Shown here: positions 9,920-15,528 of the stretch, in pieces
Layout of the letters: the number at the start of each line of letters is the position of its first letter
How positions within the stretch are numbered: the stretch's first letter is position 1
Origin: Mesobacillus persicus
GTDB lineage: Bacteria > Bacillota > Bacilli > Bacillales > Cytobacillaceae
Length of the DNA: 64,000 nucleotides
Direction: 5' to 3'
Assembly: GCF_900109925.1 (NCBI RefSeq)
Contig: NZ_FOBW01000005.1
Span: 62,001-126,000 of the forward strand
Made by a program: the position numbers and the translations under genes
Notes under the pieces: model-generated
What the model saw: only the letters and a program-made list of their open reading frames with translations
Told to the model about the DNA's origin: nothing
The model's database searches: none

Positions 9920-11083
9920 TTAGTTTTCTCCTCCTTCAAAATCCTCCGGAAACATTCCTGCTAGTACACCCAACAAAGGCTTTATTTTAATCAGTGAACT
10001 TTCTTCGTCTAGTTCAATCATCATCCAGTCTTTCATGCTTTCAATTAACTCAACCCTAATCGCACTTGTGGATTTTTCTCGAAAGTACTTTGACCAGCCT
10101 TGCTCATATCGTTTACGAAGATCCTCGAGTACTGCCTCCATTTCCCCTTCTGTCATGACAATCTCCCCATTTTCTTTTGGTGTATAACGGTCAAGATGTT
10201 CATGCAAAAAGTTTGAAAACTGAAGGATGATATCAGTTGATGCCTTCGAGGTAGGAAATAGTTGCTGATATTGTTTAGCCTGTGCCACCGATAAAAAGGC
10301 CGTGTTTTTATACAAATGCAATTTGTAATCACTATGACTCTCGATATCTTCTGATAATCGGTTTCTGAAGTTCCGTATATATAAAAAATCCGGGTCCTGC
10401 TGATCAATCCGATGTAAGCCCGGAGAAAAGAACAGCTTCCGATATACTCTTTTCCGGCGTTCGTCTTCTTGATTCAGTTTCCAATCTTCTTTTAACAATT
10501 CTTGCCAATCTTGATAGCTACTAAAATCATCGGGATAGGTGCGCATAAAGTAGCGACTGTAAAGGGTCGCTTCATATAATACTTCTTGGTCTTCATTATG
10601 GTCAAACCGGCCGATGTCGCCATCGATGGTGCGGATTAATTGAAAATCAACCAAAACCTTCATCGCGCGAATCAAGGATTTTCGATGAACATAAAGGGTC
10701 CAGTCCAATGGAAAGTCACCAGGATAATCCACTTGAATTTCCTGACTCAAATCTGATAAGAGAAACTGCTCATCCACCGACTTCCCTTCTAAAAAAGATA
10801 ACGCACAGCAAAAAATCGCATAATCCATTGGTTCCTGAAAATCTTGAATGCCCATCCACCGCTCTGGTTCTACCGGGATCTTCTCTAGCTTGATAAAATG
10901 CTGGTGAACAATTAAGCGCAGTCCAAACTTTTCGTCAATGTATCGACGAAGAACTTTTTCTCGTTCACGGATTAATTGGTACCATTCTGGATGTTCCGTT
11001 CGCAAAATCCAGTAATGATGAAACAACAGATCCATTCCTAGAATGGCCTTTTCATCAAACTCAAGTGTTTGCTCTAGCTTCAA
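9920..11083 (-). CDS. jetB: Wadjet system protein JetB (DUF2398/TIGR02678-like)
   Basis: 387 residues, soluble. In Wadjet, JetB (MukE-like) is a winged-helix partner that joins JetA to the JetC heads. The sequence has the pattern I associate with the TIGR02678/DUF2398 family: an N-terminal LLFHHYWILRTEHPEWY segment, then LRRYIDEKFGLRL and a tyrosine-rich middle (YEATLYSRYFMRTYPDDF). It starts with TTG at 11083, 7 nt after a strong GGGAGGGA site, and overlaps the jetA stop as TTGA. Assignment to type II rather than type I rests on these families and on gene sizes. Confidence 0.85.
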   Translation of the reverse strand: MKLEQTLEFDEKAILGMDLLFHHYWILRTEHPEWYQLIREREKVLRRYIDEKFGLRLIVHQHFIKLEKIPVEPERWMGIQDFQEPMDYAIFCCALSFLEGKSVDEQFLLSDLSQEIQVDYPGDFPLDWTLYVHRKSLIRAMKVLVDFQLIRTIDGDIGRFDHNEDQEVLYEATLYSRYFMRTYPDDFSSYQDWQELLKEDWKLNQEDERRKRVYRKLFFSPGLHRIDQQDPDFLYIRNFRNRLSEDIESHSDYKLHLYKNTAFLSVAQAKQYQQLFPTSKASTDIILQFSNFLHEHLDRYTPKENGEIVMTEGEMEAVLEDLRKRYEQGWSKYFREKSTSAIRVELIESMKDWMMIELDEESSLIKIKPLLGVLAGMFPEDFEGGEN

Positions 11084-12591
11084 CGCATGCTCCCTCCCTG
11101 CTCTTCAAATTCAAACAAAGCATCGGGCATTTTTAACGTTCCATCATCGGACTCTAGTAAAATGCTGTTCTCCTTATCAATCGTTACCTTAACCACCAAT
11201 CCATAGTCTGTCTTCACTTTCCGGTCTTTACTTGCCATCGATTTCCCAATCCAGCCCAATAAGACTTTACGAATGAAAGGTTCGACTTTCGATAAGGCAG
11301 AAAGCTGAATAACGCCTTCGGTCATATATTGATCAATGAGAACTCGTTCTTGTCTTCGTTCCTCGAGATATTGCTCTCGTTGACGCGTCTTTTTTTCCGC
11401 GTTAGAAGTCATTGACCCTGGCTTTGTTTTTTCACGATAACGGTTTGTCCTTGGCTTTAAGGTTAAAATGGTTGGATTTTCCTCCCATGTATCAGAATGC
11501 AGATTATCGGTTGTACCTTCTTCTAATTGCAAATGCTGAATCGTCATGCTCCCAAAAACAACGGAAGAGATTTTATGGGCGTCATCAAGTGACGGACTAT
11601 TGGCGAACCATTTGGCTAAATGAAGATAATCATTTTTGCGGCTCCGAAAATGTTGTTGCCTTTCGCCTATCCGTTGGACATACCTCGTCATTCGGCGGAT
11701 CATTTCGTTTGTCTGCCATTGCAGGACTTCCAATTCACTTTGTTGAGAAGTGGAGCCTAGGAACCACTGCCTTAAGGAGCCCCAATATTCCTGATACTCC
11801 GTTTTCCACTCTTGTTCAGATGAACTGACATCTTCGAGTCTAGGGATGGACCGGCGATGTTCAATTAATTTTTGAAAAAAGGAATCTAATTTTCCTAATG
11901 ATAGCTCGTTTAGTCGTTCCCCTATTTGCAGAGAAGTTTTTTGAAGCGAGACGATAAAATCTCGTAGATAGGTTGTAAATTGATTTTTATAAACAAGAAA
12001 GGCTTCCGTCTGCATCCGTTGGTCTGTCTGCTCACTATTAATATAGGCAATATAGTCTGCTGTACTTGTACGGATGGTTTGAAAATAACGGAAAACATCT
12101 TCCCAGATTCGCATATATTCTTCAGCGTTTTTCGATAAACCCTTTTCGATTTCTGTTTGCAGGGTAATCAATGCTTGTAGAAGGCGATCAAATTGCGATC
12201 GTTCCAATGAACCTTGGAAGGTGTCGCCGACTTTCTTTTCTAACACAACAAGCATTCTTTCGATTTCTATTGTATAAGGAGTAGATTGATAGCGAAATCG
12301 CTTTTTCTTATACTCCTCAATGGTCTTTGCACTCGTCATATCTTGACGGGCAATTAAGTTATTCCATTTCACAAGCTGCCCTAGTTGTTGATGTAGCTGA
12401 TCTTCTTGGTATTCAGAGAATGCTGGGATTGAGCGCATATAGTCGAGAATTTCCTCTGGTGCTATAAAATCCCTCATTCTTTCATGCTGATGATAAAAAT
12501 AGCGCAGGATTGTGCGGTAATGCGCCGCTGAGTCTGCCGTTAAATAACTAGCCTCGACCACTTTCTTCATGGTTACGTCCAAGATAATCAT
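11080..12591 (-). CDS. jetA: Wadjet system protein JetA (DUF2397/TIGR02677-like)
   Basis: 503 residues, first gene of the operon; the MukF/kleisin-like subunit. The N-terminal half is mostly helical (YRTILRYFYHQHERMRDFI, then EEILDYMRS). A basic, glutamine-rich stretch (EKKTRQREQYLEERRQER) lies near residue 405 and a small C-terminal beta-rich part follows. The start is uncertain: the ATG at 12591 abuts AAGG directly, while a TTG about 12 nt inside has better spacing. About 280 bp of AT-rich DNA upstream should hold the promoter; I could not identify a confident one. Confidence 0.85.
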   Translation of the reverse strand: MIILDVTMKKVVEASYLTADSAAHYRTILRYFYHQHERMRDFIAPEEILDYMRSIPAFSEYQEDQLHQQLGQLVKWNNLIARQDMTSAKTIEEYKKKRFRYQSTPYTIEIERMLVVLEKKVGDTFQGSLERSQFDRLLQALITLQTEIEKGLSKNAEEYMRIWEDVFRYFQTIRTSTADYIAYINSEQTDQRMQTEAFLVYKNQFTTYLRDFIVSLQKTSLQIGERLNELSLGKLDSFFQKLIEHRRSIPRLEDVSSSEQEWKTEYQEYWGSLRQWFLGSTSQQSELEVLQWQTNEMIRRMTRYVQRIGERQQHFRSRKNDYLHLAKWFANSPSLDDAHKISSVVFGSMTIQHLQLEEGTTDNLHSDTWEENPTILTLKPRTNRYREKTKPGSMTSNAEKKTRQREQYLEERRQERVLIDQYMTEGVIQLSALSKVEPFIRKVLLGWIGKSMASKDRKVKTDYGLVVKVTIDKENSILLESDDGTLKMPDALFEFEEQGGSMR

Positions 12592-13275: not shown

Positions 13276-13643
13276 AAATGGATTTTAAAAATGGAGAAAC
13301 TTTAATTAAGAGCTTAGATCAGGCACAATTTCATGTTCATTCTGCCTTTTGGTTTTTCAACTCAGAGTCTGAGCAATGGAGACTGATGATTGCATCAGAG
13401 CTAGTCGACGATTTAGGTCCAAAGGTAGCATACACACAAATCAAAACTGTAATCGACCATTCAGAACCTTCAATTGGAATTGAATTACAGAATATATCCG
13501 TTATTAGTCCCTCAAACATCCTTATAAAAATCTTAGGCTCAGCCATCAAGACCTCCCCTACTGATATTAATGGTATCCGATTTTCAAGAAATACAATTGG
13601 GAACAGTTTTATTGAGGATGTATATATATATAGACTTCAGTAA
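13254..13643 (+). CDS. hypothetical partner of the HEPN gene
   Basis: 129-residue soluble protein that overlaps the 3-prime end of the broken HEPN gene (ATG at 13254, HEPN stop at 13275), so the two form a translationally coupled pair. It reads DQAQFHVHSAFWFFNSESEQ, then LMIASELVDDLGPKVAY and a conserved-looking C-terminus GIRFSRNTIGNSFIEDVYIY. I have the impression that similar proteins occur beside HEPN genes in other bacteria, but I do not know a function. The reading frame is intact, so it outlived its partner, or the partner was lost recently. Confidence 0.65.
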   Translation: MDKTALVEMDFKNGETLIKSLDQAQFHVHSAFWFFNSESEQWRLMIASELVDDLGPKVAYTQIKTVIDHSEPSIGIELQNISVISPSNILIKILGSAIKTSPTDINGIRFSRNTIGNSFIEDVYIYRLQ

Positions 13644-13683
13644 TATAAATAATAAAACTTATACAAGTGTAATAATAAAGTGT

Positions 13684-13770
13684 AAAAAGCCACTCATCCC
13701 AGCAAAAAGATGAGTGGCTTTTTATTTGATTCATTTTCAAAACCGATACGGAAGCGGAAGAACCGTCCCC
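13684..13770 (+). repeat. terminator hairpin plus repeat tag
   Basis: Hairpin AAAAAGCCACTCATC (13684-13698) / GATGAGTGGCTTTTT (13709-13723), then the tag GAAGCGGAAGAACCGTCCCC (13751-13770). It is a second copy of the right half of the 3898-4030 element and probably terminates the preceding gene. Confidence 0.7.
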
Positions 13771-13798
13771 ACTTGACTTATTCGAAAACTAATACAAT

Positions 13799-13822
13799 AA
13801 TTAAATTGTGCACAATTTAATT
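13799..13822. promoter_or_regulatory. OhrR-type operator
   Basis: A perfect 24-bp palindrome made of AATTAAATTGTG and its reverse complement, centred at 13810/13811, upstream of ohrR. It closely resembles the Bacillus OhrR operator (AATT/ATTGTA-type arms). Position suggests autoregulation of ohrR and co-control of the downstream peroxiredoxin-like gene. Confidence 0.8.
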
Positions 13823-13843
13823 GTGGAGGAGGGATTTACTTCA

Positions 13844-14287
13844 ATGGATAGTGAACAATTTTTAAAGCTTGATAATCAACTTTGTTTTGCTATTTATGCC
13901 TGTTCGCGGGAAATCACCCGTTTGTATCGTCCCTTTTTAGATGGGTTGGGCATTACTTATCCGCAATTTTTAACGTTAACGGTTCTTTGGGAACATAAGC
14001 GTCTAACGGTAAAGGAAATTGGCGAACGCCTATATTTAGATAGCGGGACACTTACACCGATGTTAAAAAGAATGGAAGCATTAGAGTTAGTGAAAAGAGT
14101 CCGTGGAACAGAGGATGAGCGGAAGGTTTATATCGCCTTAACAGAGCGAGGGGAACAGCTGCGAGAAGAAGCGTTAAATTTTCCAGAAAAGTGCATCCCT
14201 CATTTTGGACTAACGAAAGACGAATACTTGGGTTTATTGAAACAAATGAACGAAATGATTGAAAGTTTACAAAAAGTAACGCGTTAA
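13844..14287 (+). CDS. ohrR: OhrR, MarR-family organic peroxide sensor
   Basis: 147-residue winged-helix repressor. The N-terminus LDNQLCFAIYACSREITRLY carries the reactive cysteine (Cys14) at the place of Cys15 in Bacillus subtilis OhrR, followed by ITYPQFLTLTVLWEH, the helix-turn-helix segment LYLDSGTLTPMLKRME, and the wing residues of GTEDERKVYIALT. A second cysteine (Cys20) is nearby. The ATG at 13844 follows GGAGGAGGG; an earlier GTG at 13808 lies inside the operator and is rejected. An organic hydroperoxide would oxidise the cysteine and release the operator at 13799-13822. The next gene begins 25 nt downstream, so the pair looks like one operon. Confidence 0.9.
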   Translation: MDSEQFLKLDNQLCFAIYACSREITRLYRPFLDGLGITYPQFLTLTVLWEHKRLTVKEIGERLYLDSGTLTPMLKRMEALELVKRVRGTEDERKVYIALTERGEQLREEALNFPEKCIPHFGLTKDEYLGLLKQMNEMIESLQKVTR

Positions 14288-14312
14288 CAAATACAAACAA
14301 TGAGGTGAAAGC

Positions 14313-14852
14313 ATGGATCTTCTATTACAAAGACCTACGCATGAAGATAAATCGTTTCGTGACATTTTAAACGGGCAAAAAAGCTTAGTAGTTTTCGTTC
14401 GCCACCCTGGTTGACCGGTTTGCCGAGAAATGCTCACGCAGTTGCGTGATCGATACCAAGAAGTTTCTGCAACAGGTTATCAGGTTCTAATTATTACCCC
14501 TTCGAATCGTTCTTTCTTAGAAAAATTTGATGAAGCGTTTGGGCCATACCCGTTCCCAATCTATGGCGATCCATCCCGTGCTCTTTACCGTGAAATGGGA
14601 CACGTTAGCATGGCAAAATCAAAGCTCCTTCTGAAAGCCGGAAAAGCCTTGTTAAAAGGTGGTTCTAAAACCTTCTTTCCTAGCGATGAAGAGCAGAAGA
14701 CCCTTGTCAAAAAAGCCATGAAAACACACGATGTCTACATTCAAGGTGGGTCTTGGCTGTTTAATGAGTCTGGCGAGGTAACATGGAGTCATATCGATAC
14801 GGCGCCGGAGGACCATGCTACGATTGATCAACTTTTACAACAAATGAAGTAG
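14313..14852 (+). CDS. predicted selenocysteine peroxiredoxin-like protein (AhpC/TSA_2 family)
   Basis: A 179-residue reading frame with one internal TGA (14412-14414) that fits selenocysteine at residue 34. The context is FVRHPG-U-PVCREML: peroxiredoxin-like proteins of the AhpC-TSA_2 (PF13911) type have CxxC here, so Sec replaces the first cysteine, giving a UxxC active site. The frame continues unbroken through IYGDPSRALYREMG and WLFNESGEVTWSHIDTAPED, both typical of the family. A 6-bp hairpin with a GU-containing loop begins 19 nt after the TGA. The ATG at 14313 follows GAGGTGAAAGC. Ordinary gene callers would split it and keep only the part from 14430. It follows ohrR and its operator, so a peroxide-detoxifying role is inferred. 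The alternative is a recent nonsense mutation. Confidence 0.78.
14434..14449 (+). promoter_or_regulatory. candidate bacterial SECIS hairpin
   Basis: Stem TCACGC / GCGTGA with loop AGTT, starting 19 nt after the in-frame TGA at 14412-14414. Bacterial SECIS elements sit within the coding sequence a short distance after UGA and carry a G-U in the apical loop; this fits loosely. Not verified by folding software. Confidence 0.5.
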
Positions 14853-14871
14853 AATCTAGTAATTTAGCATT

Positions 14872-14914
14872 AAAAAAGGAAACTTCGAGCCGTTTTGCTC
14901 CAAGTTTCCTTTTC
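14872..14914 (+). terminator. intrinsic terminator after the peroxiredoxin-like gene
   Basis: AAGGAAACTT (14876-14885) pairs with AAGTTTCCTT (14902-14911), flanked by A and T runs. Confidence 0.75.
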
Positions 14915-14933
14915 TATTATAATCACACATTTC

Positions 14934-14954
14934 GGAAGCAGAAGAACCGTCCCC
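14934..14954. repeat. repeat tag
   Basis: GAAGCAGAAGAACCGTCCCC at 14935-14954, preceded by G, immediately after a terminator hairpin. Same family as the ends of the 3898-4030 element. Confidence 0.75.
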
Positions 14955-15023
14955 ACGCTGCTAATGTCTAAGTTGTTATGGTAATGATTGCTGCGATATA
15001 ATAATGAAAAAGGAGATGAAGAA

Positions 15024-15245
15024 ATGGCAATTAGAAGAGAGGATATTCATAAATTAATTGAAACAGTACCTGAGGAAAAACTAGATGAACTTGTAAAGGT
15101 CATTAAGCTTTTCGCGATTTCTGAAGAAGAACCGACAGATGATGAAGTTCAGGCAATCAATGAAGCACGTAAAGAATATGAGACAGGTCAAACCCTCCCC
15201 TACACAGTAGATAAATTACGTAAAGAGTTTTTAGAAAATGAGTAA
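15024..15245 (+). CDS. antitoxin of a RelE-type toxin-antitoxin pair
   Basis: 73-residue acidic protein (MAIRREDIHKLIETVPEEKL, C-terminus LRKEFLENE). It has AAGGAG (15010-15015) 8 nt upstream of the ATG, and its stop overlaps the toxin start as ATGAGTAA. The sequence parallels the antitoxin at 4097-4327. Predicted to bind the toxin through its C-terminal half and to autorepress. An upstream in-frame start at 14988 has no ribosome site. Confidence 0.78.
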   Translation: MAIRREDIHKLIETVPEEKLDELVKVIKLFAISEEEPTDDEVQAINEARKEYETGQTLPYTVDKLRKEFLENE

Positions 15246-15528
15246 ATATTCACTAGAGTTATCTAAGAGCTCTAAAAAGTTTCTTGATAAAAGTGACAAG
15301 GTTACTAGGGAGCGTATTATTAACGTTCTACACGCTCTAACTGAGAATCCTTACTCATACCCAGGTATCATCAAGTTAATTGGATACCATGATATCTATC
15401 GTATCAGAATAGGTAAATATAGAATTATCTACACTGTTCTCAGCGAAAAACTCGTCATTCTATTCAAGATATCGACAGTCGCGGAGGTATATACAAACAA
15501 ATATAATATCCTACTCCTAAGTCCCTAA
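15238..15528 (+). CDS. RelE/ParE-family toxin
   Basis: 96-residue basic protein with a complete RelE fold pattern: MSKYSLELSKSSKKFLDK, helices ending in ALTENPY, then DIYRIRIGKYRIIYTVLSEK, the arginine/tyrosine core of RelE-like mRNA interferases, and a hydrophobic C-terminus. Coupled to the antitoxin by a short overlap. It is bordered by repeat tags at 14934 and 15665, which suggests mobility or local rearrangement. The precise target (ribosome-dependent mRNA cleavage or gyrase) cannot be read from the sequence. Confidence 0.82.
   Translation: MSKYSLELSKSSKKFLDKSDKVTRERIINVLHALTENPYSYPGIIKLIGYHDIYRIRIGKYRIIYTVLSEKLVILFKISTVAEVYTNKYNILLLSP

Follow-up and report, generated by a model that had tools for sequence, protein, structure and literature searches.

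A putative OhrR-linked operon encoding a peroxiredoxin-like selenoprotein in Mesobacillus persicus

Peroxiredoxin (Prx)-like selenoproteins with the motif UxxC are a listed predicted family (PMC13188914, PMC9312934; papers cited here by PMC number are quoted from excerpts). The examples given in 2006 come mostly from Deltaproteobacteria, and the same survey counted only three selenoproteins in Bacillales (PMC1794560). For "Prx-like 1", a marine survey reported 225 selenocysteine (Sec) forms versus 2,740 Cys forms (PMC2398784). The gene described below can be compared with several known systems. Prx-like thiol:disulfide oxidoreductase selenoproteins (PF00578, UxxC or UxxU; WP_010940744.1, PMC13188914) possess the same Prx-like domain with Sec first in UxxC; judged by their description, our group differs in that no close Cys homologue was found and in that ohrR is linked. 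The AhpC/TSA selenoprotein assigned to PF13911 and cd02970 (PMC9312934, PMC13188914) belongs to the same Pfam family and also contains Sec, but, again by description, within UxxS instead of UxxC. The model of SelL-related redox proteins (NF040769) is matched by our protein, which stays under its cut-off (97.3 of 120 bits). Eukaryotic SelL has two Sec residues in the motif UxxU, whereas our protein has one Sec in UxxC. PRXL2/AhpC-TSA_2 proteins, including human prostamide/PGF synthase, share the fold, the CxxC columns and PF13911; in contrast to them, our protein is bacterial, OhrR-linked and carries Sec in place of the first Cys. Finally, the OhrR-Ohr response likewise involves an OhrR with N-terminal Cys and an AATT-N-AATT palindrome over the promoter, here a proposed operator, but the gene proposed to be controlled in our unit encodes a Prx-fold selenoprotein, not Ohr. 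Prx-like UxxC selenoproteins are already known; among the literature matches listed there was no description of an OhrR-linked selenoprotein or of an operon of this kind.

The window (the whole analysed stretch of 64,000 nucleotides, G000:C21:62001-126000) comes from a 4.64-Mb genome. As the best explanation of the whole, we suggest with a probability of about 0.7 that its positions 13773-14913 represent a peroxide-inducible operon consisting of ohrR followed by the Sec-Prx gene.

The in-frame TGA and the hairpin behind it

An earlier note, made from the letters of the window, had proposed a hidden selenoprotein with a frame continuous from ATG to 14852 except for one TGA. Translation confirms this single frame of 179 residues, in which TGA is residue 34. 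The features concerned are:

14302..14307, plus strand: ribosome binding site GAGGTG, seen by eye, 5 bases 5' of the ATG
14313..14852, plus strand: putative selenoprotein gene, peroxiredoxin-like (PRXL2/SelL-related), with U34-P-V-C37; from translation, profile and homologue comparison
14412..14414, plus strand: TGA, taken as the Sec34 codon; from frame and homologues
14421..14423, plus strand: codon of Cys37, the second UxxC residue, invariant in 24 of 24 aligned proteins
14434..14449, plus strand: bacterial SECIS hairpin TCACGC-AGTT-GCGTGA; from folding and comparison of 39 loci

The TGA stands in the context VVFVRHPG-U-PVCREM (motif GUPVC) and is followed by 145 residues and a TAG stop. Ordinary ORF calling hides the gene: the standard list gives only the remainder, 14430-14852, with 140 residues and no active site, exactly the truncated call that had been predicted.

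At E 1e-3, matches were found in 58 of 193 genomes of the family. In 50 of them the match reaches E < 1e-56 and contains exactly one TGA. The remaining eight comprise short or decayed fragments (G117, G157, G095, G075, G076, G046), a distant relative without stop in G100 (E 7e-8, 23% identity) and a weak match in G081. One of these gene remnants is in the genus of the window, and some have several stops. Among 398 sampled genomes of the class, 12 matched at E < 1e-36, with one TGA each and spread over 8 families including that of the window. We fetched 40 loci, 39 of them distinct. Of these, 30 belong to the family, where the check at column level covers 30 of the 50 genomes with the gene, and 9 come from 7 families elsewhere in the class. 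The locus of Mesobacillus maritimus PL-B2 (L052; one locus in the genome_contigs search, 85% identical to the window protein) encodes the same protein as L023 of G094, a genome of the same genus as the window, and does not enter any count of 39. We discarded the frame of L043 (motif UQAC) as one arisen by chance.

All 39 distinct loci have TGA at the one column of residue 34 and Cys three residues on. Among 19 aligned distant relatives lacking TGA, the Sec34 column holds Cys in 7 (L080 among them) and Thr in 11. In the latter, Cys comes three residues later, which is the TxxC arrangement of ordinary peroxiredoxins; one further sequence is unaligned at this place. These distant relatives belong to other subfamilies; all close relatives inspected are predicted to use Sec, Cys at the Sec34 column being met only in the distant ones. 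A search of plasmids gave 12 records, none of which reaches 60% identity; 11 carry the annotation peroxiredoxin-like, and 1 is unannotated.

Comparison of seven pairs, aligned outward from the TGA without gaps, gave pN < pS both before (28 codons) and after it (60 codons) in 7/7 cases; for the window and G094, pN is 0.066 and pS 0.305 after the TGA. Purifying selection acts on the protein on both sides of the TGA, and the note's view that the part behind it is no decay is supported.

The sel genes, on whose presence the earlier claim hung, were found in the window genome: selA (576 bits), selB (367 bits) and selD (395 bits), as well as tRNA-Sec (63.5 bits; SeC(tca) by ARAGORN), each over its cut-off. 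The selD gene itself contains one TGA. Two more frames with one TGA were seen, a formate dehydrogenase alpha gene over cut-off (G000:C24:54196-56217(-)) and a second, partial match below cut-off in a 1001-aa frame (G000:C33:114955-115707(+)), and both are likely to represent further selenoproteins. Because of these three TGA codons, the Sec machinery probably has three other customers in this genome.

In the class sample, selA is over cut-off in 86 of 398 genomes, namely in 12/12 with the TGA gene versus 74/386 others (Fisher p 5e-9, uncorrected for kinship). Within the family, 170 of 193 genomes have selB over cut-off; since it is so common, its co-occurrence with the gene is weak (48/50 genomes with the gene, 122/143 without; p 0.03). 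The 23 family genomes without selB were read off best E-values. They include G079 and G145, which have the gene and whose assemblies consist of 560 and 720 contigs, and 13 genomes of genus g20, of which 0/13 have it.

Bacterial SECIS elements are hairpins just 3' of UGA with a G in the apical loop, for which the 27th nucleotide after UGA is a usual place. The hairpin with a GU loop that the note had placed at SECIS distance was recovered at 14434-14449, its loop G being the 27th nucleotide. Across the loci, the hairpin spans columns 22-39 (numbering starts at the U of UGA) and has seven pairs and the loop AGUU, which is the same in 39/39; in the window, the outermost bases do not pair, and six pairs are left. 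Taken alone, the window hairpin folds no better than shuffled sequences (z -1.0, 32/200 as good), so the support for SECIS comes from comparison across the 39 loci. There, 98.5% of cells are paired, against at most 68% in slid controls. Only one pair, 25-36, changes on both sides (A-U in 18, G-C in 11 and G-U in 9 of 39), which is no excess over shuffles (257/500); the number of cells with both-side change and the covariation score lie above all 500 shuffles. Constraint on silent positions is stronger evidence than these pair changes. Gln43 is CAG and Leu44 is TTG in 39/39 loci, residue 42 is encoded by ACG or GCG in 39/39, and codons 41, 43, 44, 45 and 46 show the five lowest relative synonymous entropies among 68 testable columns, a column being testable when 30 rows or more share the residue. 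A scan of 13600-15000 with Rfam gave 10 matches, all below gathering scores, none inside the gene and one on the hairpin after it.

If the TGA were a real stop, the locus would be a pseudogene, the product of a sequencing error, or a gene for 33 residues with an independent gene starting at 14430. The standard ORF finder, which returns 14430-14852 only, and the decayed copies in some relatives speak for such a view. A start at 14430, however, drops residues 34 and 37, which are invariant in the alignment, and 50 of 50 strong family homologues with one TGA each exclude the sequencing error that the note had named as the danger to its claim. Together with selection up- and downstream, the SECIS constraint and the presence of sel genes, this leaves a genuine stop with hardly any probability; stop codon, pseudogene and sequencing error are rejected as explanations. 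That the TGA is read as selenocysteine is, on comparative grounds, near certain.

The ohrR gene, the palindrome and their distribution

To the selenoprotein of the earlier note we add an OhrR gene, a palindrome and the operon that they suggest:

13773..13801, plus strand: putative sigma-A-type promoter TTGACT-17-AATAAT, 10 of 12 consensus positions
13799..13822, no strand assigned: perfect 24-nt palindrome AATTAAATTGTGCACAATTTAATT, in which two AATT-N-AATT cores flank GTGCAC; proposed as OhrR operator
13844..14287, plus strand: ohrR, MarR-family organic-hydroperoxide sensor with Cys14, by homology
14874..14913, plus strand: terminator-like hairpin after the gene, -19.8 kcal/mol, z -6.7

The ohrR gene ends 25 bases 5' of the selenoprotein start codon. 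The best PDB match of its product is OhrR 1z91 of Bacillus subtilis (E 8e-41); Cys14 aligns with position 15 of 1z91, that is, with the sensing Cys15 of B. subtilis OhrR, and is shared by all 12 OhrR-type proteins aligned (the window and 11/11 others). With the Vibrio-type OhrR model, the product does not reach the cut-off. By eye, a further Cys can be seen near residue 117-120 in those OhrR proteins that are encoded next to Sec-Prx (window, L113-L117, L053, L056, L120); it is missing in the paralogues L118 and L119, and L088, beside a glutathione peroxidase, has one nearby. An OhrR with the further Cys is perhaps a two-Cys sensor.

The promoter is weak evidence when taken alone, as the shuffled region gives 3.0 such sites on average. 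Of the 6 ohrR-linked family loci, read by eye, 5 have TTGACA or TTGACT at a like distance 5' of the palindrome; the sixth has TGGACA. Overlapping the putative promoter, the palindrome is composed of the halves AATT-A-AATT and AATT-T-AATT flanking GTGCAC. It has one match in the window; 100 shuffles give none, even with 3 mismatches allowed. The plain OhrR consensus has 2 matches in the window versus 0.69 expected, a count reached in 13/100 shuffles and thus not above chance. A study of Chromobacterium OhrR describes a protected repeat with GTGCAC at its centre and cites AATT-N-AATT as the core of OhrR sites in other bacteria (PMC3469484). A terminator scan did not flag the hairpin at 14874-14913 on the plus strand. 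We infer that ohrR and the selenoprotein gene form a two-gene unit and are transcribed together, and control of the selenoprotein gene by OhrR is likely.

Directly upstream ohrR was found at 8 of the 39 distinct loci (6 of the family and 2 of family f49); in the other 31 it is absent from the 1.5-kb flanks searched. All six ohrR-linked family loci have the core TTGTGCACAA 5' of ohrR. A weight matrix derived from these six was applied to the 6 loci of the same clade that lack an adjacent ohrR. It finds a site directly 5' of the selenoprotein gene in four of them (L026, L027, L029 and L031; 0/2000 shuffles each) and no site in the other two (L025, L030). Neither the 18 family loci of the RHLG-U type nor the 9 class loci gave a site, the score of class locus L060 being borderline (27/2000 shuffles). 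The two ohrR-linked loci of f49 have no site 5' of ohrR by a simpler consensus (6 mismatches).

A branch supported at 100/100 separates the 12 loci with RHPG-U or RYPG-U from the rest. On the tree, the OhrR link requires three label changes, two of them forced, which may equal one gain followed by losses; clustering of the link is not significant (224/500 shuffles), with 27 of 39 rows in no group. OhrR control thus seems to belong to the clade of the window, with a further ohrR link in f49.

Two other OhrR-type genes were met. In the window genome, a second one (41% identical) adjoins a Cys-type glutathione peroxidase gene (L088:1492-2498(-), C23). In G145, an OhrR paralogue is followed by a different Prx-like frame with TGA (L110:1468-1950(+), G145:C317; GFVUPFC), behind which a hairpin with the same AGUU loop occurs. 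This locus is a candidate second OhrR-selenoprotein pair of another subfamily.

Fold, motif and presumed chemistry of the product

Both Prx-type Pfam families recognize the protein: PF00578 (AhpC-TSA) with 46.7 bits over residues 10-99 (gathering cut-off 26) and PF13911 (AhpC-TSA_2) with 55.1 bits (cut-off 27). The SelL_rel_redox model of NCBIfam, whose cut-off of 120 bits is a curated one, is matched by all 24 members scanned. An AlphaFold model built from 24 of the 39 proteins has the Prx fold with mean pLDDT 88. In Foldseek, its best PDB matches are human prostamide/PGF synthase and structures of the peroxiredoxin Q/Bcp type, with TM-scores of about 0.65-0.68; identity to PGF synthase is only 18-19%. 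The same enzyme is the best PDB match by profile (E 9e-9). Its C44 and C47 align with U34 and C37; the title of 9usa gives both of these Cys residues as mutated.

The earlier note had located the TGA exactly at the first Cys of CxxC in a PF13911-type family. This stands only in part: the match to PF13911 starts as late as residue 43, beyond the active site, but PGF synthase and 7 of the 19 distant TGA-less relatives do have Cys at that column. Residues invariant in 24 aligned proteins include R30, G33, U34, C37, Q43, L44, R45, G77, P78 and P80; conservation of Q43-L44-R45 may be partly due to the RNA.

The classical motif PxxxTxxC/U is absent, the protein having RHPGUPVC with no Thr three residues before Sec34. 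Instead, Sec34 occupies the position of Thr in ordinary TxxC, and the ordinary peroxidatic Cys falls at the Cys37 column. Because this is the case in 11 of 19 distant relatives, an attack of Sec34 on peroxide does not follow from homology to ordinary peroxiredoxins. It is reasonable nevertheless, since PGF synthase has its CxxC at the same columns. Most likely, the product is a Sec enzyme of the PRXL2/Prx-like group under OhrR control; its peroxidase chemistry, including the attacking residue, substrate and reductant, we infer from these comparisons.

The presumed operon would work as follows. When no peroxide is present, reduced OhrR would sit on the palindrome at 13799-13822 and block the promoter. 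An organic hydroperoxide would oxidise Cys14, the OhrR protein would leave its presumed site and both genes would be transcribed. At the UGA (14412-14414), SelB bound to the hairpin at 14434-14449 would, with Sec-tRNA(Sec), insert Sec34. In the resulting Prx-fold enzyme, Sec34 would attack the peroxide, Cys37 would resolve the selenenic acid by forming a selenenylsulfide with it, and the enzyme would be restored by thioredoxin or a comparable reductant.

UxxC also fits, as a motif, a thiol:disulfide oxidoreductase. The protein could then be a thiol:disulfide oxidoreductase or repair reductase similar to thioredoxin or TlpA, with Sec34 as nucleophile and no peroxidase activity. UxxC is a thioredoxin-type motif, the UxxC group of PF00578 is listed as "Prx-like thiol:disulfide oxidoreductase" (PMC13188914), models of ResA and StoA match weakly (4/24 and 1/24 proteins, respectively), and ResA structures appear among the Foldseek matches. 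The peroxidatic-type Cys of TxxC at the Cys37 column in 11 of 19 distant relatives makes this alternative stronger and our best explanation less sure. On the other hand, peroxide defence is suggested by the OhrR linkage and the palindrome, a glutathione peroxidase adjoins the second OhrR of the genome, and the structures that resemble the model most are those of PGF synthase and peroxiredoxin Q/Bcp. We regard a thioredoxin-like disulfide reductase as a serious rival with an appreciable, though minor, chance of being true.

Another alternative is suggested by PGF synthase, the best match by profile and by fold with C44/C47 at Sec34/Cys37: instead of hydroperoxides in general, the enzyme might reduce a specific organic peroxide or endoperoxide like human PRXL2B. 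Identity of only 18-19% speaks against such a transfer of function, and these bacteria are not known to contain a natural endoperoxide substrate. Hence we find a specific endoperoxide reductase improbable, and prefer the peroxidase of organic hydroperoxides.

Other genes and the meaning of the operon

A different selenoprotein candidate was encountered in the family. Here, an N-terminal Prx domain with in-frame TGA (PF00578, TW-U-PNC) is joined to the signalling domain of methyl-accepting chemotaxis proteins (PF00015), over 453-495 residues in all:

L081:1637-2995 (G073:C9), plus strand: Prx-MCP fusion frame
L082:1631-3115 (G163:C7), plus strand: Prx-MCP fusion frame; the further loci with the TGA Prx domain are L093-L101 and L103

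At E < 1e-60, this Prx domain with TGA occurs in 12 of 193 family genomes. Ten of the 12 loci include the MCP tip, the frames of the other two ending early, and CAGCUGGUCCAGCUG follows UGA in 10 of 12. The fusion is a candidate selenocysteine redox chemoreceptor. We found no description of it among the best 12 of 24 literature matches, and its novelty may exceed that of the Sec-Prx operon.

In the window itself, adjacent genes of DUF2398 and DUF2397, presumably parts of a Wadjet type II defence system, lie at 9920-12591(-). Downstream of the operon, a small gene without Pfam match precedes a gene for a ParE/RelE-type toxin (PF05016) at 15024-15528(+); the two are probably a toxin-antitoxin pair.

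We think it slightly better than an even bet that this branch of Bacilli possesses a peroxidase family whose close members are all Sec proteins and which, in the clade of the window, is under OhrR and made on demand against organic hydroperoxides. If our assumptions are true, these bacteria would use Sec for defence against peroxides besides formate dehydrogenase, and the OhrR link may be of more than one origin. These Bacillus relatives are mostly aerobic or facultative. Selenoproteins are rarely retained in aerobic bacteria, Sec being easily oxidised (PMC13188914). The presence, in one family, of selB in 170 and of the TGA Prx-like gene in 50 of 193 genomes contrasts with that rarity. Should the selenoenzyme indeed be controlled by OhrR, it would offer a clean system for asking why Sec, and not Cys, is kept in peroxide chemistry.
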